Below are positions 51,907-64,000 of a DNA stretch of 64,000 bases, one piece after another. This DNA is from Methylotenera sp. L2L1 (lineage in GTDB: Bacteria; Pseudomonadota; Gammaproteobacteria; Burkholderiales; Methylophilaceae): assembly GCF_000744605.1 (NCBI RefSeq), contig NZ_JQMG01000001.1, forward strand, positions 1,922,001 to 1,986,000. The letters are read 5' to 3'. Numbering within the stretch: the stretch's first letter is position 1; each line of letters starts with the position of its first letter. Position numbers and translations under genes: made by a program. The notes beneath the pieces were generated by a model that searched no databases, was not told the origin of the DNA, and saw only the letters and a program-made list of their open reading frames with translations.

Positions 51907-52593
51907 ATGCAACAATCTCCAATGATTCAAGCGCAAGACCTGCACTACGAAATTACTAACCATGATAACCAAATTCGCATATTAAGTGGCCTAAATCTGA
52001 GCGTTACAGATGGTGACCAAATTGCCATTATTGGCAGCTCTGGTTCAGGTAAATCTACATTACTTAGCCTGCTCGCAGGGTTGGACGTTCCTACTAGCGG
52101 AAGCGTTCAAATTAGAGGTGGTCTATTTAGCGGTTTAAATGAAGATGGCCGTGCTGCGGTACGAGCTAAAGACATGGGGTTTGTATTTCAGTCTTTTCAG
52201 TTATTACCCGCATTGACTGCATTAGAAAACGTGATGCTTCCACTGCAATTAAAAAGCCATCCTAAAGCTGAAGCATTAAGCCTTGAAGCTTTAGATAAAG
52301 TAGGGCTAAGTCAACGTGTTCAACACTACCCTAAACAACTGTCTGGTGGAGAGCAGCAACGAGTGGCAATCGCGCGTGCTTTTGCCACACAGCCTAGTAT
52401 TTTATTTGCAGATGAGCCCACAGGTAATTTAGATAGCACTACTGGCCAGATGATTATTGAGTTGCTGTTTAACATGAATAAAGAGGCTGGCACTACCTTG
52501 GTGCTGGTTACACATGATATTAAGCTGGCTAATCGTTGCAAGCGTCTATTTAAATTAGAGCACGGTGTTCTATTAGAAATGGCGCAAGTATGA
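51907..52593 (+). CDS. ybbA: YbbA-like ABC transporter ATP-binding protein
   Basis: 228 aa. Walker A GSSGSGKST (about 43-51), signature LSGGEQQRVAIARAFA, Walker B ILFADEPTGNLDS and the H loop VTHD. LolD/MacB-type MATE-like ATPase; assigned to YbbA from the head-to-head tesA gene and the large permease downstream. Its stop overlaps the permease ATG (ATGA). Confidence 0.93.
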   Translation: MQQSPMIQAQDLHYEITNHDNQIRILSGLNLSVTDGDQIAIIGSSGSGKSTLLSLLAGLDVPTSGSVQIRGGLFSGLNEDGRAAVRAKDMGFVFQSFQLLPALTALENVMLPLQLKSHPKAEALSLEALDKVGLSQRVQHYPKQLSGGEQQRVAIARAFATQPSILFADEPTGNLDSTTGQMIIELLFNMNKEAGTTLVLVTHDIKLANRCKRLFKLEHGVLLEMAQV

Positions 52594-55097
52594 TGTTAGC
52601 TGCTAGGTTGGCATGGTCGCAAACGATTAGTTTGTGGCGCGCTGGTGAGTTAAGAGTATTAGTCTTCGCATTAGTGTTGGCGGTTGCAGCGATTACTGCG
52701 GTGAGTTTTTTTACGCAGCGTATTGAGTCTGCACTTAATCAACAAGGTAGTTTGTTAATTGGTGGAGATTTAGCGGTTTTAGCAGACCATCCTATCCCTA
52801 CTACTTTTATGGTGCGTGCAAAATCACAAGCAATGTTGGCAACACGTACTTATGAATTCCCTAGTATGGTGATTTACGGCGAGTCGAGTCAGTTAGTTGA
52901 AATTAAGGCGGTTGAACCAAACTTTCCATTACGTGGGCACTTAACGATAGGTAAGCATCCACAGGATACGGGGCAAGCTGTGCAGGCCGCTCCTCAGGCT
53001 GGTGAGGTTTGGATAGAGCCACGATTAGCAACTTTGTTGAATGTGCAGGTAGGTGACAAACTCCAAGTGGGTGAACTTAGTTTAATAGTGAGTGCTGTAT
53101 TACTGCGTGAGCCTTCGCGGGGGGGCAATATGTTTAGCTTTGCGCCTAGGTTGATGATGAACGCTGCCGATTTAGCTGCAACTCAACTTATTCAGTATGG
53201 CAGCCGTGTGAAATACCAGCTTTTGTTGGCTTCTAGCCCTGAAGAAATTCAGCGTTATTTGGAGCAGGCAAAGCCTACATTGGGTAGAGGAGAGCGGATG
53301 GATGATGTCCGTAATGCCCGTCCTGAAATAAAAACTGCATTAGATAAAGCACAGCAGTTTTTGGGGCTATCTGCCATGGTGAGTGTGGTGTTGGCGATGG
53401 TGGCCATGCTGTTATCAAGTTTGCCGTACATCAAGCAAAGTTTAAATACATTTGCTTTGATGCGCTGTTTTGGCGCCCAACAAAATACAGTGTTGCAGAT
53501 ATTGACCATTCAAACCTTAATGATCGCGTTATTGAGTGCGTTGGCTGGTGCGCTGCTTGGTTTTATCGCGCAACTAGGGTTAGCACAATTAGCAGGTAAT
53601 TTGTTTGTGGAAACATTGCCACCGGTATCTGCAATGCCTGTGTTAATAGGGATTTTGGCTAGTATTGGGATGATGGTTGCTGTCGTGCTTCCACACGCGT
53701 GGCAAATGAGAAATCTGTCGGCGATGAATATACTAAGGCGAGATACGCTATTACTACCATTATCAACACAAGCTAAGTTCTTGCCAGCTGCTTTAGTGAT
53801 GATGGTCATGATTTTCTGGCAGGCGCAAGATGTGAACATTGCAGTTTCGACGATTGTTGCGATGCTTGCATTGAGCTTAATTGTATTAGGCTTTGTTTAT
53901 GCGCTCACTTACTTAGCACAGCGGTTTTTAATGCTCACCCCTAAAAGTAGCATGTTGGCCTCCATTAATCTGGGTATACAAGGCTTAAAACGCCGAGTTG
54001 GTTTGTCCACTGTGCAAATGATTGGCTTTTGCATGGGCTTGATGGTGATTATGCTGCTGACGCTCATCCGTGGTGATTTAATCCGTAATTGGCAAGCATC
54101 TCTGCCAGAAGGTGCGCCAAATCGATTTGTGATTAATATTCAACCCGCTCAAATTAATCAAGTAAATCAGTTTTTTATTAAACAAAACATTCAAGATGCG
54201 GCTATCTTTCCAATGGTGCGTGCGCGATTGGTCAGTAAAAATAAACAGTTAATCAATACTGTGACATGGCAAGATGATCGTGCGAAAAGACTTGCCGAGC
54301 GAGAGTTTAACTTGTCATGGGCCGCACAAATGCAAAGCGATAATAAGCTAGTTGCTGGACGCTGGTGGCAAGATAACGAACATGGAAAGCCATTAATATC
54401 ACTTGAAGAGGGCTTGGCTAAAAGTCTTAATATTAAAATTGGTGATCAACTACTATTTGATATCGCAGGAAGTCCGTTAACACTGACCGTCACAAGTCTT
54501 AGAAAAGTAGAGTGGGATACGATGCGCGCCAATTTCTTTGCTGTGACACCGCCAGGGGTGCTGGATACATTTTCTGCCAGCCATATCAGCAGTTTTCATC
54601 TGCCTATTGGCGCAGAGGAGTCACTTAATCAACTGGTGAAGCAATACCCTAATTTAACCGTGATTGACATTGCAGCACTCATGCAGCAAGTGCGTGGCAT
54701 CATGCAAAAGATGAGTCAGGCAATTGAGTATGTTTTTGTGTTTAGCTTAATTGTAGGTGTCGCCGTACTGTACGCTGCCCTTGTTGCCACCAGAGAGGAG
54801 CGCGTGACAGAAGCAACGCTAATGCGTGTATTTGGCGCATCACGACAACAGGTGAGTGTTGCTTATATCGCAGAATTTGCGTGTATTGGATTTATCTCGG
54901 CGCTAGTGGCATCGATTGCCGCAAATTTTTTAGCGTATTACATTAGTGTCAATATTCTCAATATACCGTTTCAGTTTAATCTTAGTTTGGTTGTATTGAG
55001 TGTGCTAGTTGCAGCAGTTTTAATTCCATTAGCTACTTGGTTGGGGTTGCGTCGTTTCTTGAATATTCCACCTAGGCAGTTACTTAACAGTATTTAA
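52590..55097 (+). CDS. ybbP: YbbP-like FtsX/MacB-family ABC permease
   Basis: 835 aa. An N-terminal membrane helix (LRVLVFALVLAVAAITAVSF), a MacB-type periplasmic domain, a four-helix FtsX block (about 255-385), further helices to about 500, a second periplasmic domain and a second FtsX block (about 725-825, ending near TWLGLRRFLNIPPRQLL). About ten membrane helices in total, the layout of YbbP. Substrate unknown; proposed to act in envelope lipid or toxin handling with TesA. Confidence 0.92.
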   Translation: MMLAARLAWSQTISLWRAGELRVLVFALVLAVAAITAVSFFTQRIESALNQQGSLLIGGDLAVLADHPIPTTFMVRAKSQAMLATRTYEFPSMVIYGESSQLVEIKAVEPNFPLRGHLTIGKHPQDTGQAVQAAPQAGEVWIEPRLATLLNVQVGDKLQVGELSLIVSAVLLREPSRGGNMFSFAPRLMMNAADLAATQLIQYGSRVKYQLLLASSPEEIQRYLEQAKPTLGRGERMDDVRNARPEIKTALDKAQQFLGLSAMVSVVLAMVAMLLSSLPYIKQSLNTFALMRCFGAQQNTVLQILTIQTLMIALLSALAGALLGFIAQLGLAQLAGNLFVETLPPVSAMPVLIGILASIGMMVAVVLPHAWQMRNLSAMNILRRDTLLLPLSTQAKFLPAALVMMVMIFWQAQDVNIAVSTIVAMLALSLIVLGFVYALTYLAQRFLMLTPKSSMLASINLGIQGLKRRVGLSTVQMIGFCMGLMVIMLLTLIRGDLIRNWQASLPEGAPNRFVINIQPAQINQVNQFFIKQNIQDAAIFPMVRARLVSKNKQLINTVTWQDDRAKRLAEREFNLSWAAQMQSDNKLVAGRWWQDNEHGKPLISLEEGLAKSLNIKIGDQLLFDIAGSPLTLTVTSLRKVEWDTMRANFFAVTPPGVLDTFSASHISSFHLPIGAEESLNQLVKQYPNLTVIDIAALMQQVRGIMQKMSQAIEYVFVFSLIVGVAVLYAALVATREERVTEATLMRVFGASRQQVSVAYIAEFACIGFISALVASIAANFLAYYISVNILNIPFQFNLSLVVLSVLVAAVLIPLATWLGLRRFLNIPPRQLLNSI

Positions 55098-55429: not shown

Positions 55430-57865
55430 CTACTTCTTTGGGCCACCAAACTCATAACGAGCGCCAATCCAAGCCGCACGTGGTGCGCCAGATAATAACC
55501 CAAGTTGTTTTGATTCAGTACCAAATGTGCCATCAGCAGTAAACATGGTTTCAGCTAAACGGCCACTCACATTGTACTCACGGTCAAAAATGTTGGTCGC
55601 TTTAGCAAATGCTTTCCAACCATTGCCGATGTTGTATTGTGTGTCTAAGTTAACAATAAAATAACCGCTCACTTTACCTTTGCCTGTAGCACACTCTTCA
55701 GTATCTGCAGCACAAGTTGCACTATTAGCACGATGTTGGTTGTTTTCATTGCCCCAAACATAAGCGCTTGAGAAGCCAATCACGTTAGTACCAATAGACC
55801 ATGCTGGTGTGACTGCATATTGACCACGTAGTTTCAATTGATGTGCAGGAATTGATGGAATACGGTCACCTGGTTTTGCGTAAATAATACCTTCACTATC
55901 TTCTGACGAGTTTGAAGAACTTACAAATGAAACATCAGAATCGTAAGTGGCACGTACATAGCTGTATGAAGCGCTCCATCTGAACTTATCAGCATCACCA
56001 GCTAAGCCCATATCAATCCCTTGACGCTTAGTTCTGCCTACGTTTTTGTAGTAGCCAGCACCGTTTGATGAGCCTGCTGCAGTGAATTGAATGTCATCAT
56101 GGTTAACAGCATGGTACAAGCCAGCATTCCAACGAATACTTTCTGTTAACAAGCCACGACCACCAAACTCATAAGTTTTCGCAACCACTTGGTTTAGTGG
56201 AGGATCATCTGCCATTGCTGAAGGCAGTAAGCATGGTGCCGCTGGATTTGAACAGCCTAACTCAATAGAGGTTGGTGCACGGCTAGATTCACTATAAGAC
56301 GTAAAGAACGTTAAATTGTCATTAGGTGTATGCGTCAGGCCTATGCTTGGGTTTAAACGTGTGTAGCTATCTTTTGCAGTCAAGCTATTTGGATTTGTAT
56401 CAGAACGAGGACCTCTTAGCGTATCTACGTTATCAACACGCGTAAAGTTCCAGCTTGCACCACCAGTTAAATGCCACTGATCATTAAGAGATAATGTATC
56501 TGTTGCAAATAAACGTGCTGTGTATTGTTTACCAGTAAGACCTGTTGTTTGCCTTTGTGGGAGCAAACCATCACCAGCTAAGATTGGTGCTCTTGATGGG
56601 TCAAACACTGAAGAGCTGCCTGTGTTTCCAACCAAAATACCATCAACAATAGCTTCACTCAATTCGGAAATATTTACATTTTCAGATTGTTTGAATCTAG
56701 ACAATGTGTAGTCGTATCCTGCGCCAACTGTAAATTGATTCTTTTTACCCATCCAATCCTCATTGAATACCATCTGACCAGTTGCGCCATAGGTATCTTG
56801 AGTAGTTTTAGATGAGTTTAGGGTTGAGCCGGTTATTTCACAGTCATCACCAGCACCGTTACATGTTATGCCAGGATAGCCGGCAAGCGCATCACCATCT
56901 TCAATCTCAGCTTCGTATAAGTCACCATTTACTGTATGACGATTAGATTTTCTGTAATACACATTACCAGAGAACATCGTGTCTTCATTAATCCAATGAG
57001 AGCCGTTTAGTGCTAAGAAGTGTGAGTGGTTGTTGGTAAAGTCTGGGCGAGTATGAATTTGATCACGATCACCACTTAATAGGTTTTCAGGCGTAAAGCC
57101 ATTACCAATAAGATTATTATCTGTACCGATATAAGTTAAATCTAACTTGGTTGTTTCATTTTGCCAACCCAACTTACCAAATAATTGGTTGAGGTGTGAT
57201 GGTGAGTAATCTCTCCAGCCATCTTCAGTCGTGTGTTGGTAGCCTAGCATGTAATCTACAGAACCATCTTTAGATACGCCGCCAGCTTCGATTAATGCAC
57301 GTTGACGACCCCATGAGCCAGCCTCGTATTCTAAGGCCATGCCTTGGTTATCACGACCACTTTTGGTTTGAATCGCAATAGCACCGCCCAAAGTATTTAA
57401 ACCGAATAATGGATTTGATCCAGGCACTACTTGCATGTTGCCAATCGCAAAGCTAGGAATCTTGTCCCAAAGCGTTACATCACCGAATGGCTCGTTGACA
57501 CGTACACCATCCACATAGGTAGAAAGACCTTGAGCATTACCTAATAAAGAAGAAGCAGAGTAGCCACGGAAGTTGATTTCTGGTTGCCATGGGTTACCAG
57601 ACATATCTGATACTGTCACCCCTTGCATATTGTTCATCATGTAGTCAGCAATTGAAACGCCAGCTTGATTAGCAACCTCTTTTGGTGATGCCATTTGGAT
57701 ATTTGCAGGTACTTTATTTAACGGCAAACCAATACCTGGTAGTGGTGTAGTGCCGTATACCTCAATTTTCTTAATATTAATTGCAGTGTCATCTGCAAGT
57801 GCTGGTGTGTTTGCAAAAGCAAGCATCACCGCGACAGATGTAAGTTTCATCAATGGTTTTTTCAT
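55430..57865 (-). CDS. TonB-dependent outer-membrane receptor
   Basis: 811 aa. Signal peptide (LTSVAVMLAFANTPALA), plug domain (about 45-170: NMQGVTVSDM, NFRGYSASSLLGNAQG, STYVDGVRVNEPFGDVTLWD, GGAIAIQTKSG) and a 22-strand beta barrel ending WIGARYEFGGPKK. Three Cys-pair loops (CNGAGDDC, CSNPAAPC, CAADTEEC) are probably extracellular. Ligand unknown; no siderophore or cobalamin gene is adjacent. Its start is preceded by a sigma-54 promoter match, and an enhancer-like palindrome array lies 170-250 bp upstream, next to a divergent sigma-54 activator gene. Confidence 0.94.
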   Translation of the reverse strand: MKKPLMKLTSVAVMLAFANTPALADDTAINIKKIEVYGTTPLPGIGLPLNKVPANIQMASPKEVANQAGVSIADYMMNNMQGVTVSDMSGNPWQPEINFRGYSASSLLGNAQGLSTYVDGVRVNEPFGDVTLWDKIPSFAIGNMQVVPGSNPLFGLNTLGGAIAIQTKSGRDNQGMALEYEAGSWGRQRALIEAGGVSKDGSVDYMLGYQHTTEDGWRDYSPSHLNQLFGKLGWQNETTKLDLTYIGTDNNLIGNGFTPENLLSGDRDQIHTRPDFTNNHSHFLALNGSHWINEDTMFSGNVYYRKSNRHTVNGDLYEAEIEDGDALAGYPGITCNGAGDDCEITGSTLNSSKTTQDTYGATGQMVFNEDWMGKKNQFTVGAGYDYTLSRFKQSENVNISELSEAIVDGILVGNTGSSSVFDPSRAPILAGDGLLPQRQTTGLTGKQYTARLFATDTLSLNDQWHLTGGASWNFTRVDNVDTLRGPRSDTNPNSLTAKDSYTRLNPSIGLTHTPNDNLTFFTSYSESSRAPTSIELGCSNPAAPCLLPSAMADDPPLNQVVAKTYEFGGRGLLTESIRWNAGLYHAVNHDDIQFTAAGSSNGAGYYKNVGRTKRQGIDMGLAGDADKFRWSASYSYVRATYDSDVSFVSSSNSSEDSEGIIYAKPGDRIPSIPAHQLKLRGQYAVTPAWSIGTNVIGFSSAYVWGNENNQHRANSATCAADTEECATGKGKVSGYFIVNLDTQYNIGNGWKAFAKATNIFDREYNVSGRLAETMFTADGTFGTESKQLGLLSGAPRAAWIGARYEFGGPKK

Positions 57866-57921
57866 TATTTACTTTCGATAAAAATTCTAGGCTATCTTTT
57901 ATGTAAGATGGGCTAAATTAA

Positions 57922-57937
57922 GCAAAAAATATTCCAA
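57922..57937 (-). promoter_or_regulatory. Sigma-54 promoter facing the TonB receptor
   Basis: On the minus strand TTGG-AATATTTT-TTGC has the invariant GG and GC separated by 10 bp, as required for RpoN -24/-12 promoters. The -12 GC lies about 57 bp before the receptor ATG. The promoter at 58288 has nearly the same sequence. Confidence 0.65.
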
Positions 57938-57944
57938 TTTAAAC

Positions 57945-57994
57945 GTTTTTAATCTAAGTTAATTCAAGTGATTGAATTAACTTAGATTAAAAAC
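57945..57994. repeat. Perfect 23-bp inverted repeat, IHF-like centre
   Basis: Arms 57945-57967 and 57972-57994 match over all 23 positions with a GTGA loop. A+T rich with no U tract. Its centre ATTCAA-GTGA-TTG (57962-57974) differs by one base from the IHF consensus WATCAANNNNTTR. It lies between the sigma-54 promoter at 57922 and the palindrome array at 58033, where a DNA-bending site would be expected. Confidence 0.75.
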
Positions 57995-58032
57995 TTAACG
58001 GTTAATTGAGATTGGTGGTGGCGGCTAGTTGG

Positions 58033-58111
58033 TGGTTGTAATAAACCATATTATGGTTGTATATAACCAATAATTGGTTGTAATAAACCATGTTTTGGTT
58101 GAGTATAGCGA
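58033..58111. promoter_or_regulatory. Array of four 16-bp palindromes at 21-bp spacing (candidate UAS)
   Basis: TGGTTGTAATAAACCA (58033-58048), TGGTTGTATATAACCA (58054-58069), TGGTTGTAATAAACCA (58075-58090) and a degenerate TGGTTGAGTATAGCGA (58096-58111) start exactly 21 bp apart, two helical turns. The TGGTT-N6-AACCA form matches the size of enhancer sites for Fis-type DNA-binding domains of sigma-54 activators. The array lies about 120-200 bp upstream of the predicted receptor transcription start. Confidence 0.7.
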
Positions 58112-58287
58112 TGTTGATGTTGTGGCGAAGTGATCTTGATGGTGAGGTTCTTTTAAATAAAGAGTGTAGCTTTTTTGTGCTATTTATAATGTTGAGTAAT
58201 GCCTGTGGGAGCGCAGTGCATTTAATTTGGCCAAATCATGATTGTTAATGGTGGTAGTTTTTTTGTGAAGTTTTATAAAAAAGATGC

Positions 58288-58303
58288 TTGGAATGTTTCT
58301 TGC
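58288..58303 (+). promoter_or_regulatory. Sigma-54 promoter facing the response regulator gene
   Basis: TTGG-AATGTTTC-TTGC has GG (58290-58291) and GC (58302-58303) with 10 bp between. It shares TTGGAAT.TTT.TTGCT with the divergent promoter at 57922. The -12 GC is about 53 bp before the TTG start codon. Confidence 0.65.
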
Positions 58304-58355
58304 TAATTTAAAACCAGTAAAGATAAAAATTAAGCTTGTATGTCAGGAGTAATAA

Positions 58356-59771
58356 TTGCAATTAGCGCATCTCAGTAATATTGAAGCTTCAACGTTAGCT
58401 AAACAACAATCAAAAATATTGATTGTTGAAGATGAGGCGTTGTTTGCACGTGCCGTAGTGCGTCGGTTACAAAAATCAGGCTATGAATGTGCGCACGTGG
58501 AGAGTCTGCAAGATGCGCGCAATATCGTTAAACAATTTACGCCAGATATTGTTTTACTCGACATGCGATTACCTGATGGCAATGGTTTAGATTTGCTTGC
58601 TGAGTTTGTTGCTAAAGGCGCAGTGGTGATTGTCATGACTGCGCATGGTGAAATCAGTGATGCCGTCAATGCAATGAAGCTAGGGGCCGTTGATTACCTT
58701 AAAAAACCGATAGATCTCGAAGAGTTGTTATTATCGATTCAAAAAGCTGAAACTGCAGCTATGCAGAGTAAGAGTCTTGATTACTCACGCCAGCGTAATG
58801 CGCATGCCTCAGAAGGTGTGGAGTTGCTGGGAGATAGCCCAGCCATGCAAAATGTAAAAATGCAAATTAAACGCATTGCGCAGCTAGTATCAAACGACAG
58901 TGTGCCGCCTACAGTGCTGATAGGTGGTGAAACAGGAACTGGTAAAGATGTGGCTGCACGTTTATTGCATTTATCATGTGCTAATAGTGATAAACCTTTT
59001 GTGCACGTGGATTGTGCGTCATTGCCAGCAGAGCTAATGGAAAGTGAATTATTTGGTCATGAGAAGGGCGCTTTTACTGGCGCTGTCAGTTCTCGCCCTG
59101 GTTTGATTGAGGCAGCAGAAGACGGCACTTTGTTTCTAGATGAAATCGGTGAATTACCATTAGCGCTACAGGCGAAACTGCTTAATGTGCTAGAGCGTCG
59201 TGTTGTTCGGCGTATTGGGTCAACTAAAGAGCGTACTGTACCAGCTCGTTTTGTGGCAGCGACTAATCGTGATTTACATGAAATGTCACAGAATGGCCGT
59301 TTTAGGCAAGATTTGTATTACCGGCTCAACATGATGAGTGTTTTTATGCCACCATTGCGTGATCGTGGGCACGATATTATGTTGTTAGCCAAAAGCTTTG
59401 CCACACAAACTGCTAGACGTTACGGCTTAACCAGCCCGCATTTCACTAGAGAGGCAGTGAGTACGATACAAACTTATGCATGGCCAGGTAATGTGCGTGA
59501 ACTGAAGCATCAAGTGAGCCGTGCTATGTTGCTTTGTCATAACGGAGAGCTGACAGACATTGATTTGGCGTTACCAAATTGCCGTCTTGCAGAGCCGATT
59601 CCTACTACCTTAGCAGATTCACAACAGTCCGCTCTGGATGCGGCAGAAAAGTCTATATTGTTACAAGTCCTTGTCGAAACTAAATACAATGTTTCTGAGG
59701 CGGCAAGAAAGCTTGGGATTACACGCATGACAATGCGTTATCGTATGGATAAGCATCAAATTAAAGCTTAG
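58356..59771 (+). CDS. NtrC-family sigma-54-dependent response regulator (orphan)
   Basis: 471 aa from a TTG supported by AGGAG at 6-nt spacing; the first ATG lies well inside the receiver domain. Receiver with Asp69 in VLLDMRLPDG and Lys in DYLKKPIDLEEL; central AAA+ domain with Walker A GGETGTGKD (190-198), GAFTGA loop (238-243, contacts sigma-54), LFLDEIGELPL Walker B, and RFRQDLYYRLN; C-terminal Fis-type helix-turn-helix (about 440-467, NVSEAARKLGITRMTMRYRM). No histidine kinase gene is adjacent. The palindrome array and sigma-54 promoters upstream suggest it controls both itself and the TonB receptor. Confidence 0.93.
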   Translation: MQLAHLSNIEASTLAKQQSKILIVEDEALFARAVVRRLQKSGYECAHVESLQDARNIVKQFTPDIVLLDMRLPDGNGLDLLAEFVAKGAVVIVMTAHGEISDAVNAMKLGAVDYLKKPIDLEELLLSIQKAETAAMQSKSLDYSRQRNAHASEGVELLGDSPAMQNVKMQIKRIAQLVSNDSVPPTVLIGGETGTGKDVAARLLHLSCANSDKPFVHVDCASLPAELMESELFGHEKGAFTGAVSSRPGLIEAAEDGTLFLDEIGELPLALQAKLLNVLERRVVRRIGSTKERTVPARFVAATNRDLHEMSQNGRFRQDLYYRLNMMSVFMPPLRDRGHDIMLLAKSFATQTARRYGLTSPHFTREAVSTIQTYAWPGNVRELKHQVSRAMLLCHNGELTDIDLALPNCRLAEPIPTTLADSQQSALDAAEKSILLQVLVETKYNVSEAARKLGITRMTMRYRMDKHQIKA

Positions 59772-59927: not shown

Positions 59928-61127
59928 ATGCGAATCGGAACCCCTTTAAGTCCTAATGCAACCCGTGTCATGCTCTTAGGTAGTGGTGAGCTTGGTAAAG
60001 AGGTGATTATCGCTTTGCAACGTCTAGGCGTTGAAGTGATTGCCGTCGATCGCTATAAAAATGCGCCTGGCCATCAAGTTGCGCATCGCGCCCATGTGAT
60101 CGATATGACTGACGACCAAGCATTACGTCAGTTGATTGCGCTTGAAAAGCCACATTTGATTGTGCCTGAAATTGAAGCTTTAAACACAGCAACACTCGCT
60201 GATATTGAACAATCGGGCATTGCGACCGTGATTCCTACCGTTAAAGCTGTGCAGTTAACGATGAATCGTGAAGGTATTCGCAGGCTTGCTGCTGAAGACC
60301 TTAACCTACCGACATCTCCTTATGCATTTGCCAGAAGCGAAGCCGAGCTTCAAGCTGCGATTGATGCAGGTATAGGCTACCCATGTTTTATCAAGCCTAC
60401 CATGTCTTCCTCTGGTAAGGGTCAATCACGCATTACACAGGCGAGCGAAGTATCCTCTGCGTGGGAATATGCTGCGTCTGGTGGACGCGTAAATCAAGGT
60501 GTAGTGATTGTTGAGGGTCAAATTGACTTTGATTATGAGATTACGCTATTAACCGTCCGTGCAAAAAATGCACAAGGTGAAATCAGCACTTACTTCTGTG
60601 AGCCAATTGGCCATGTGCAAGAAAAGGGTGACTATGTCGAAAGCTGGCAACCGCAACCAATGGCTACTAAAGCATTAGAAGAGTCTAAACGTATTGCTAA
60701 AGCGGTCACTGACAGCTTGGGCGGCTTGGGCTTGTTCGGGGTTGAGCTGTTTGTCAAAGGCGACCACGTTTGGTTTAGTGAGGTAAGTCCTCGTCCACAT
60801 GATACAGGCATGGTGACGATGGCCACGCAACGCTTTAGTGAGTTTGACCTACACGCACGTGCAATTTTAGGATTGCCTGTAGACGTGAGCCTGCGTGAAG
60901 CTGGCGCTAGTGCTGTTATCTATGGCGGGCATAATACCCAGCAATTAGCTTTTGATGGCGTGGAAAAAGCCTTAGCCGTGAATAATACTGATATTCGCTT
61001 ATTTGGTAAGCCAGAGTCTTTTACTAAAAGGCGGATGGGCGTTGCATTAGCGACGGGTAAAGATGTTGCGGAAGCAAGAGTAAGTGCAAAATTGGCTGCT
61101 AGTCTTGTGACACCGATTGATATTTAA
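59928..61127 (+). CDS. purT: Formate-dependent phosphoribosylglycinamide formyltransferase 2
   Basis: 399 aa. ATP-grasp enzyme: [20 protein letters not shown] at the start, [19 protein letters not shown], the [19 protein letters not shown] metal-binding block and [18 protein letters not shown]. It makes formyl-GAR from GAR, formate and ATP, independent of formyl-tetrahydrofolate, which fits a methylotroph with a formate pool. 156 bp upstream without a recognised operator. Confidence 0.97.
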
Positions 61128-61732: not shown

Positions 61733-63136
61733 TTACTTTCTAGATAACAATCCACCAAGTAAGGCAGCTACTGGTGCTTTTTTGGTGTTAATTTGTCTAG
61801 TAGCGACAACATTATTTTCTTGTGTGCTTGGTTCGTAAGGTTTATCAAACCATGGGTCGACACTCTTCTTCTTAGCTGGTAAGCGTCTGGTTGGTGCTTC
61901 CTGATCTTTCACCTGATTGCTTGCGTTGCTACGTGTACGTGATGTTGCTTTAGGTTTATCTAGCGCTACCGTTTCTTTGGTAATTTGGCGTTTGATTAAC
62001 TTCTCAATTTCAACCAAGTATTTCTCTTCATCATCGCTGACAAATGAAATTGCAACGCCGCTTGCGCCGGCACGTCCGGTACGGCCAATACGATGCACAT
62101 AATCTTCTGGCGCACTTGGAATTTCATAATTAATCACCATTGGCAGTTCACTAATATCTAAACCACGCGCAGCAACATCCGTTGCGATAAGCGCAGTCAC
62201 TGTGCTAGCTTTAAACGCATCTAATGCTTTAATACGCTCTTGTTGGGTTTTATCGCCATGAATTGCGTCTGCCGCAATGCCTTCGCGTACTAGGCTGCGG
62301 CTTAAACGGCTCGCCGTTAATTTTGTTTTGGTGAATACGATGACTTGTTTTGCATCGGCTTCTTTTAACAGCTGAATTAACAAGGCTTCTTTATCTGATT
62401 GCGCAACTTGATATACTTTTTGCGTTACGTTGTCGTTGGTTGCATTGCTGCGCGCCACTTCAATCAATTGAGGTTTAGTTAAAAAGTCATCTGCTAATTT
62501 TTTAATCTCGTTTGAGAATGTCGCTGAAAACATCAAATTTTGACGCTGTTTTGGCAATAGTGCCAAAATACGTTTCAAATCAGGCATAAAGCCCATGTCC
62601 AGCATTCTGTCTGCTTCATCAAGTACTAACATTTGTACTTGGTTGAGCTGTAATGTTTTTTGTTCAATATGATCCAACAAACGGCCAGGGGTCGCTACCA
62701 ACACTTCCACGCCCGTTTTAAGGTGAGGTGTCTGTGTTTTGATATCTACGCCACCATAGACAACCAGTGAGCGTAATTGCGTATGCTTGGCATACGCTTT
62801 GACGCTTTCTTCCACCTGAATAGCAAGCTCACGTGTTGGCGTTAAAATTAACGCGCGCACGGGGTGCTTGGCAGGAGAGGTGCTGCTATTGGCTAGCGGT
62901 AATAACTTCTGTAGTAGGGGAAGCGCAAATGCCGCAGTTTTACCTGTGCCAGTTTGCGCCCCTGCCATTAGATCCCCTCCAGCCAAGGCAACAGGAATAG
63001 CCTGTGCCTGAATTGGTGTTGGAGTAGTGTAACCAGATTCAGTTAATGCACGTAAGAGCTCAGGTGCGAGTCCTAATGTGCTGAAACTTGGGCTGTCAGT
63101 CGTTACGATTTCTGTCATTTGTTGGATACTGTTCAA
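61733..63136 (-). CDS. DEAD-box RNA helicase (RhlE type)
   Basis: 467 aa. Q motif GYTTPTPIQAQAIP (36-49), motif I AQTGTGKT (60-67), DEAD (173-176), [21 protein letters not shown] and [10 protein letters not shown] are all present. The short C-terminal tail is basic and ends QINTKKAPVAALLGGLLSRK. Likely an RNA helicase in ribosome assembly or RNA decay. Starts 18 bp after the stop of a second helicase gene, giving a tandem pair. Confidence 0.93.
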   Translation of the reverse strand: MNSIQQMTEIVTTDSPSFSTLGLAPELLRALTESGYTTPTPIQAQAIPVALAGGDLMAGAQTGTGKTAAFALPLLQKLLPLANSSTSPAKHPVRALILTPTRELAIQVEESVKAYAKHTQLRSLVVYGGVDIKTQTPHLKTGVEVLVATPGRLLDHIEQKTLQLNQVQMLVLDEADRMLDMGFMPDLKRILALLPKQRQNLMFSATFSNEIKKLADDFLTKPQLIEVARSNATNDNVTQKVYQVAQSDKEALLIQLLKEADAKQVIVFTKTKLTASRLSRSLVREGIAADAIHGDKTQQERIKALDAFKASTVTALIATDVAARGLDISELPMVINYEIPSAPEDYVHRIGRTGRAGASGVAISFVSDDEEKYLVEIEKLIKRQITKETVALDKPKATSRTRSNASNQVKDQEAPTRRLPAKKKSVDPWFDKPYEPSTQENNVVATRQINTKKAPVAALLGGLLSRK

Positions 63137-63154
63137 TTAAAGTCTTTACTTAAG

Positions 63155-64000
63155 TTATGCAAAACTACGTGAGCGACGTGGTGCACCATTGCCTGCACCT
63201 GCATTAGCGCCAGCAAAACCACGTGCTGGACCACGGCTATCGCTACGACCAGCAGGACGGCTATCACTGCGATCACCATCACGACGTGCAGCAGGTGCTG
63301 CGCTACGATCAGAACGGCCTTCGCTACGTTGACCGTCGCGTGAGTAAGGTTTTTTACCGAAGGCTACGCTATCGCCAAAGCTACGGTTAGGTGTACCCGC
63401 ATTGTTACCACGGCTACGGTCACCAGACTTATCAAACGCTGCGCGGTCACCAAAGCTACGTGCACGGTCGCCAGATGGTCTTTCTGAGCGGTTAGTATCA
63501 GATCTGCCAGCATAACCAGCTGAGTTGCCATTGATTTCACGCGGAGCTGAGTCACGGTTGCCACGATTTTCAAAACGGTTTTCGCTGCGAGGAGCGCTAT
63601 CACGGCTAGCGCCATTGCGATCATCACGACCTTTGTAACCACCACGGTCATCACGTGGTTTAAAGCCACCACGACCACCTGGTTTGTGACCATCACGACG
63701 GCTGCCGCTAGGGCCATCCATCTTCATGGCACGTTTTGGTTCAAAACCTTCAATCACTGCAGGCGACATGGTGTTGCCAGTGAATTGTTCGATTTTACGT
63801 AGAATATGTCTATCCATGTTCGACGCGAATGAAATGGCGATACCAGTGTTGCCAGCACGACCAGTACGGCCGATACGGTGTACATAGTCTTCTGCAAATT
63901 TAGGTAAGTCGTAATTGATGACGTGTGTAATGCCATGTACGTCAATACCGCGTGCAGCAACGTCAGTCGCTACCAAGATTTTTACATCGCCATGACGTAA
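63155..64000 (-). CDS. DEAD-box RNA helicase, C-terminal part, cut by window edge
   Basis: At least 281 residues; the gene continues beyond 64000. The visible part begins [20 protein letters not shown], contains [13 protein letters not shown] and continues into a long disordered tail (about 190 residues) rich in Arg, Gly, Ser and Asp, with two RSFGDxxAF repeats and many RSD/SRG units. The N-terminal half (Q motif to DEAD) lies outside. Tail of this kind binds RNA and can drive condensate formation in other DEAD-box proteins. Followed by the 61733 helicase on the same strand. Confidence 0.93.

Follow-up and report, generated by a model that had tools for sequence, protein, structure and literature searches.

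A TonB-dependent receptor locus of Methylotenera as the predicted output half of a two-locus sigma-54-dependent circuit in Methylophilaceae

TonB-dependent receptors are usually described as controlled by Fur, by pairs of extracytoplasmic function (ECF) sigma factors and anti-sigma factors, or by AraC or two-component regulators acting at ordinary promoters. A locus of Methylotenera sp. L2L1 raises the question of how such a receptor could instead be controlled by sigma-54: a TonB-dependent receptor gene and the gene of a putative enhancer-binding protein (EBP) diverge from a region that contains two promoter-like elements of the -24/-12 type and an array of palindromes. The locus was analysed in a stretch of 64,000 nucleotides (hereafter the window; contig NZ_JQMG01000001.1, positions 1,922,001 to 1,986,000), which is part of a 2.64-Mb single-contig genome. 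We propose that it is probably the output half of a two-component circuit that depends on sigma-54 and is divided between two loci in the Methylophilaceae. This proposal is supported by comparison of the promoters, the array, the gene layouts, the co-occurrence and co-divergence of a kinase, the adjacency of tonB and kinase genes, and the exchange of the receptor.

In the proposed circuit, the phosphorylated EBP would occupy one face of the DNA at the TGGYTGTATACARCCA array. From there it would activate the RpoN holoenzyme at the promoter of the receptor gene, which lies about 95 bp away from the closest palindrome. In this clade it would also activate its own promoter, about 200 bp away, which would create a positive feedback. 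The cognate sensor would be an unlinked membrane histidine kinase (521324-522808 in the genome), encoded directly downstream of a TonB gene. Phosphotransfer, binding of the EBP to DNA and activation are predicted steps; the assignments of a cue and a cargo, discussed below, are speculative.

Promoters, operator array and gene layout

The receptor (811 aa) is encoded at 55430..57865 on the minus strand, and the EBP (471 aa, TTG start) at 58356..59771 on the plus strand. The element TTGGAATATTTTTTGCT (57921..57937, minus strand) faces the receptor gene and TTGGAATGTTTCTTGCT (58288..58304, plus strand) faces the regulator gene; the two are nearly identical and both have the GG-N10-GC spacing. The pattern TTGGAATNTTTNTTGCT was matched without mismatch exactly twice in the 64 kb, at these two promoters, and up to three mismatches it was matched 13 times, compared with 5.6 expected. 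The general sigma-54 consensus YTGGCACGRNNNTTGCW was not enriched in the window (33 matches compared with 37 expected); the case for sigma-54 therefore rests on geometry and conservation. Between the promoters lie three perfect TGGTT-N6-AACCA palindromes in 21-bp steps, the first and third of sequence TGGTTGTAATAAACCA (58033..58048 and 58075..58090) and the second of sequence TGGTTGTATATAACCA (58054..58069), followed in the same register by a degenerate fourth with two mismatches (58096..58111). The whole genome contains 15 palindromes of this form, and 8 of the reversed pattern.

Pfam matches in the EBP are, in order, Response_reg, Sigma54_activat and HTH_8, which place a receiver domain at about 58416-58739, an AAA+ domain at about 58827-59342 and a Fis-type helix-turn-helix at about 59634-59753. 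The GAFTGA loop and the aspartate of the receiver domain are both visible in the translation. The best NCBIfam models (PrsR-type TIGR02915, AtoC and NtrC) all scored below cut-off, and the closest named relatives by EBP were Methylotenera records (L195-L198, 90-96% identity; Methylophilaceae, Nitrosomonadales). In the receptor, Plug and TonB_dep_Rec_b-barrel were the sole Pfam matches at 0.001, and no STN signalling domain was found at its N-terminus at this threshold. The initial annotation of this DNA, made from the letters alone, had described sigma-54 promoters facing receptor and regulator, a palindrome array between them, and a regulator with REC, AAA+ (GAFTGA) and Fis-type domains; all of this was borne out, with promoter coordinates right to within one base.

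Conservation was examined by searching 150 genomes of the family for the EBP at a threshold of 1e-100. It was matched in 85 of them, in two (G111 and G116) at an identity of only 43-44%. The window and 60 of the other EBP matches, fetched with wide flanks, gave 61 loci, which contain the receptor gene in 58 cases, purT in 58, a globin gene in 57, and a permease gene in 43; the complete set of five genes is present in 43 loci. Three loci without this receptor (L087, L117 and L127) were left out of the promoter counts. In the remaining 58 the receptor gene stands upstream of the EBP gene in tandem (51 loci) or the two genes are divergent (7 loci: the window, L068-L072 and L077).

At least two palindromes, with at most one mismatch, were present within 300 bp upstream of the receptor gene in all 58 loci, compared with none of the 58 inside the receptor gene and none upstream of purT. 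A -24/-12 element upstream of the receptor gene was recovered by pattern in 57 loci (reversed-sequence control, 0/58), 15 of which have TTGA or TTGT, not TTGC, at -12; in the 58th, L126, the element TGGCGCGAAGATTGCA was found by eye. On this comparison the promoters and the array are not chance matches, and in the search of relatives that the initial annotation had proposed, array and EBP gene adjoin in 58/58 loci.

A sigma-54 promoter facing the EBP gene was found in all seven divergent loci. The same scan of tandem loci returned sites only at about -12 in L073 and L084, which are too near the start codon to be the EBP promoter; in the tandem pairs, spacing suggests co-transcription of receptor and EBP genes. 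At L117/L284, where the EBP is encoded without this receptor, the EBP gene is itself immediately preceded by array and promoter. The EBP thus appears to stay under the array in each layout, via an operon or via its own promoter, and autoregulation would be kept. The idea of an autoregulated EBP that controls the receptor, put forward in the initial annotation, is supported by these comparisons.

A second copy of the EBP gene was noted in G006 (L166:13529-15235); its product is 73% identical to the window EBP and it has its own upstream module. No receptor of the window type was found near this copy in the 13-kb stretch L087.

The window has some other features. Between the array and the receptor promoter lies an inverted repeat (57945..57994), perfect over 23 bp and with a loop of 4 nt, which the initial annotation does not mention; it was rejected as a conserved element, as it was not kept in six relatives (alignment of seven intergenic regions). 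The flanks, which do not belong to the circuit, are formed by purT (59928..61127, plus strand) and, on the opposite side, by a gene for an FtsX-type permease (52590..55097, plus strand), both identified by Pfam and conserved to the extent given above. Two tandem genes whose translations resemble DEAD-box helicases occupy the end of the window (61733-64000, minus strand).

A histidine kinase gene elsewhere in the genome

The regulator had initially been called an orphan, and no kinase gene adjoins it in the window. Outside the family, EBP relatives of 55-60% identity were found in 6 of 150 genomes of the order, at seven loci from four families. In five of these seven (L275-L279) a kinase gene overlaps the EBP gene; the kinases have a HAMP-HisKA-HATPase architecture, assigned by Pfam in L276-L279 and by homology in L275. 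A gene for a related receptor (39% identity) follows in two of the loci, L278 and L279. Palindrome pairs (at most one mismatch, 19-21 bp apart) accompany the EBP gene in 6/7 outgroup loci, compared with 0/7 for the reversed control; L275 and L276 differ in that their pair comes after the EBP gene and does not precede it. In L278, a sigma-54 site of canonical appearance, TGGCATAAGACTTGCT, is situated between the EBP and receptor genes (L278:8540-9060); a terminator-like hairpin follows it within about 100 bp, and after that comes a palindrome pair.

The ortholog of the outgroup kinase in Methylotenera sp. L2L1 is encoded at G000:C1:521324-522808 (1.6e-106; the next kinase scored 7.6e-20), far from the EBP gene at 1980356. 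At 1e-80 this kinase was matched in 88 of the 150 family genomes. When G111 and G116 were set aside as EBP orthologs on account of their low identity, 83 EBP genomes remained, and the 150 genomes fell into 82 with EBP and kinase, one with the EBP alone, six with the kinase alone and 61 with neither. The two proteins also diverge together: among 25 genomes, drawn from the 58 loci, EBP identity tracked kinase identity (Spearman 0.92) and did not track that of the receptor (0.26, p 0.21). The designation of the EBP as an orphan in the initial annotation is therefore not supported: with a kinase ortholog that co-occurs with it at a distant site of the genome, and with the gene overlap in outgroups, the EBP probably has a partner.

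A gene for a TonB protein lies directly upstream of the kinase gene, on the same strand, in 28 of the 30 loci examined. TonB_C was recognized by Pfam in the four family members scanned, and the kinase-adjoining tonB is one of three TonB_C genes of this genome. In the kinase itself, the periplasmic stretch RGxLYRQxKExFDA is kept in all nine aligned sequences, five of which come from outgroups.

The operator-promoter module at other genes

The association of operator-promoter modules with the EBP was assessed with a composite pattern (operator, 81-111 bp, GG-N8-TTGC), the reversed pattern serving as control. The 85 EBP-positive genomes gave 261 matches compared with 6 for the control, and the 65 EBP-negative genomes 24 compared with 4 (counts were computed both with and without G111 and G116); at least one match was present in 76/85 and 15/65 genomes, respectively. 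EBP-negative genomes are mostly small, so that genome size confounds part of this contrast. Among genomes of at least 2 Mb, composite density was 1.25 per Mb in 74 EBP-positive genomes and 0.18 in eight EBP-negative genomes.

In this genome, with TGC at -12, there were seven composite matches and one control match. The seven are at the receptor, at 26.6, 28.9 and 30.1 kb, back to back at 1468.7 kb (two matches) and at 2428.3 kb, the last perhaps by chance. The 26.6-kb module lies upstream of a pseudopilin gene, that at 28.9 kb upstream of an O-antigen-ligase-like gene and that at 30.1 kb upstream of a stretch which has no sizeable open reading frame (ORF); one module of the 1468.7-kb pair faces an Mrr-type gene. 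In 25 genomes of the genus, 82 composite matches were found compared with 2 control matches. A self-contained regulon, as the initial annotation had it, was therefore rejected as too narrow, since the module recurs in this genome and in the genus at other genes. In 28 fetched regions of relatives around composite matches, modules stand before genes for other TonB-dependent receptors, for an autotransporter and an RTX protein, before a secretin cluster, before glycosyltransferase and pseudopilin genes and before an Mrr nuclease gene; several other matches had no obvious target. The predicted targets are largely cell-surface genes; with seven activators of strong AAA+ match in the genome, this EBP may act at all or at part of them.

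At 30.1 kb (L046:6099-6477, G000:C1:30098-30476), the operator and the sigma-54 site TGGCATAGCTTTTGCA precede an ORF-poor stretch that ends in a terminator-like hairpin, possibly a sigma-54-dependent small RNA of about 240 nt. It folded better than 200/200 shuffles (z -3.1), and strong matches among 41 genus genomes were limited to this genome, G112 and G051, with a weaker one in G060. No Rfam match was found for this candidate (30.2 kb) in L046, L164 or L016, and assignment to a known RNA family was dropped.

Three further observations concern genes near modules. First, the module stands upstream of Mrr-type nuclease genes at L052:2255-2402, L165:5681-5910 and L179:4266-4390, in G000 and G112, where an integrase-like gene adjoins, and as a separate case in G151 (Mrr_cat by Pfam in L165, by clustering in L179). 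Second, it lies directly upstream of a large autotransporter gene in three genomes of the genus (L180:2734-5997, L182:4509-7834 and L189:2464-5739; Pfam on L180, the others being in the same cluster). Third, a double-PepSY protein (Pfam), which resembles the lanthanide-binding lanpepsy, is encoded about 7 kb from a PQQ (pyrroloquinoline quinone) methanol/ethanol-type dehydrogenase gene (L046:5157-5687 and L192:3861-5765). An operon in L177/L181 was at first taken for mxa/MoxR genes; three of its proteins had no NCBIfam match and we make no claim for it.

Receptor exchange, cue and cargo

A receptor tree of 53 rows (52 full ORFs from 64 named loci and the window; quick LG+G4) was compared with the EBP tree. 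Between the window and G078, identity is 84% for the EBP and 92% for PurT, but 42% for the receptor. The window receptor is closer, at 72-74% identity, to those of G057, G133, G022 and G050, which belong to other genera and whose EBPs are 69-71% identical. A single clade for 29 Methylotenera-group receptors was rejected (p-AU 3.15e-05, log-likelihood 1866 lower); the EBPs of the same group, from whose tree the 29 rows were named, form one group with a support of 99. This conflict of trees and identities indicates that one receptor has been substituted for another several times while the regulatory locus stayed in place and the kinase sensor was conserved. The kinase would then most likely read a cue that does not change (engagement of TonB, or a single small molecule shared by all) and not the surface of each receptor, because the receptor has been replaced repeatedly and the periplasmic sensor has not.

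Several results weigh against the two-locus circuit. Among outgroup loci, L281 has no kinase gene adjoining the EBP gene, and L280 is cut by a contig end. In the family, six genomes have the kinase and no EBP was found in them; EBP and kinase are both absent mainly in small genomes, and genome reduction alone produces part of their co-occurrence. The composite module still occurs in 15 of the 65 EBP-negative genomes. Finally, rpoN was not found in the fetched stretches, to which the search for it was confined.

What the receptor imports was approached through structures and context. No solved structure matched the receptor alone at 0.001; with a profile of the receptor family, the nearest were those of YncD/PqqU, the PQQ receptor of Escherichia coli (3.6e-32; next, 1.9e-16). 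In the outgroup loci, a PQQ alcohol-dehydrogenase-like protein (L277), PQQ-associated propellers (L276 and L279) and a quinoprotein-relay hydrolase (L276) are encoded, and in E. coli pqqU likewise adjoins a propeller gene, yncE. A truncated xoxF-like fragment lies upstream of the receptor gene in G151, and near the 26-30 kb modules of this genome are genes for the double-PepSY protein, for a SoxYZ-like carrier and for a PQQ dehydrogenase (XoxF cluster), the last two assigned above cut-off. This genomic context points weakly to quinoproteins. It is possible, and in our judgement rather doubtful, that the circuit serves a quinoprotein cofactor, the receptor importing PQQ or a lanthanide chelate and the kinase sensing the status of the cofactor or of methanol dehydrogenase; as a proposal on cargo and signal, this is compatible with the two-locus circuit. 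Against it, the PQQ-contact residues of PqqU are absent from the receptors (see below), the outgroup dehydrogenase, propellers and hydrolase all score below NCBIfam cut-offs, and the other module genes are those of pili, of an autotransporter, of an RTX protein and of a nuclease. A lanthanide regulon, suggested by the double-PepSY gene and XoxF in the vicinity of some modules, was demoted to this alternative, the other module genes pointing to surface structures.

Membership of the PqqU group, attractive from the structure search, was rejected. According to excerpts of PMC12124388, PqqU homologs are verified by Y99 (or F, W), R304 and R365. In an alignment of 41 of the 53 tree rows with PqqU, these residues were kept in 0/41 receptors, and likewise K274, N477 and R536, so that all six PQQ-contact residues are absent: the column of Y99 holds L, V or A, that of R304 holds S, N, A, G or V, and no arginine is found at R365, where the region aligns poorly. 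The lanthanide-switch receptors LanA/LutH, as described in PMC12482762, share with the present receptor the trait of being TonB-dependent receptors in methylotrophs, and the double-PepSY protein near a module and the XoxF cluster of this genome offer a likeness of context.

As to the cue, the pairing of tonB and kinase genes makes TonB engagement the boldest candidate. In Fec/Fpv-type surface signalling, a receptor with an STN domain acts with a FecR-type anti-sigma factor and an ECF sigma factor. The present locus shares with that type a receptor gene beside its own regulator and a predicted positive feedback, and differs in that the receptor has no STN domain and that a kinase and a sigma-54 activator take the place of the sigma factor pair; no ECF sigma or FecR gene was found among the scanned neighbouring ORFs (permease, PurT and globin). 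We tentatively raise, without much expectation, the idea of a sigma-54 counterpart of Fec-type signalling, in which the kinase would sense the engagement of TonB with outer-membrane receptors and, via the split EBP, would raise the expression of the resident receptor. If so, since TonB and not the ligand would be read, recombination could exchange the receptor with no need to rewire the circuit, which would account for the pairing of a conserved sensor with a shuffled receptor.

Two further alternatives deny the circuit itself. The EBP might be a true orphan today, acting independently of phosphorylation or receiving phosphate from several kinases, while the unlinked kinase has another partner. 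The lack of a kinase gene beside the EBP gene in the window, the six genomes with the kinase and no EBP and the one with the EBP and no kinase speak for this; the gene overlap in outgroups, the co-occurrence in 82 genomes and the matched divergence speak against it, and we consider it improbable. That another activator (e.g. PilR-like) binds the palindromes and the neighbouring EBP controls something else is very improbable: the genome does encode seven sigma-54-type activators with a strong AAA+ match, and modules do occur at pseudopilin and secretin genes, but the array adjoins the EBP in 58/58 loci and also in L117/L284, where this receptor is missing, EBP-positive genomes have a fivefold higher density of composites, and the recognition helix of this EBP is not the same as in the other six activators.

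The two-locus circuit thus remains the preferred reading, and it resembles NtrC-family two-component systems (NtrBC, ZraSR and PilSR) in domain order, in the GAFTGA motif, in the HAMP-HisKA-HATPase kinase and in having palindromic operators in tandem, placed about 100 bp ahead of promoters of the -24/-12 type. It differs from them in its target, a TonB-dependent receptor, in the splitting of kinase and activator genes in Methylophilaceae, and in the position of the kinase gene after a TonB gene. Sigma-54 control of TonB itself (COG0810) is predicted, and unconfirmed, in Flavobacteriia according to excerpts of PMC12316311. The word TonB is absent from the main text of a transcriptomic study of three Methylophilaceae (PMC3728764), and in excerpts of PMC11978286 BtuB is the sole TonB-dependent receptor mentioned for Methylotenera. 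Searches of the open-access literature yielded no description of this type of receptor control in Methylophilaceae, most subscription papers being outside this scope.

If the proposed circuit is correct, a family-wide sigma-54 circuit with a tonB-linked kinase would represent a different coupling of uptake to transcription, and one that occurs in culturable methylotrophs. With a conserved sensor and an exchanged receptor, the cue that is sensed and the cargo that is imported would become separable questions at this locus.

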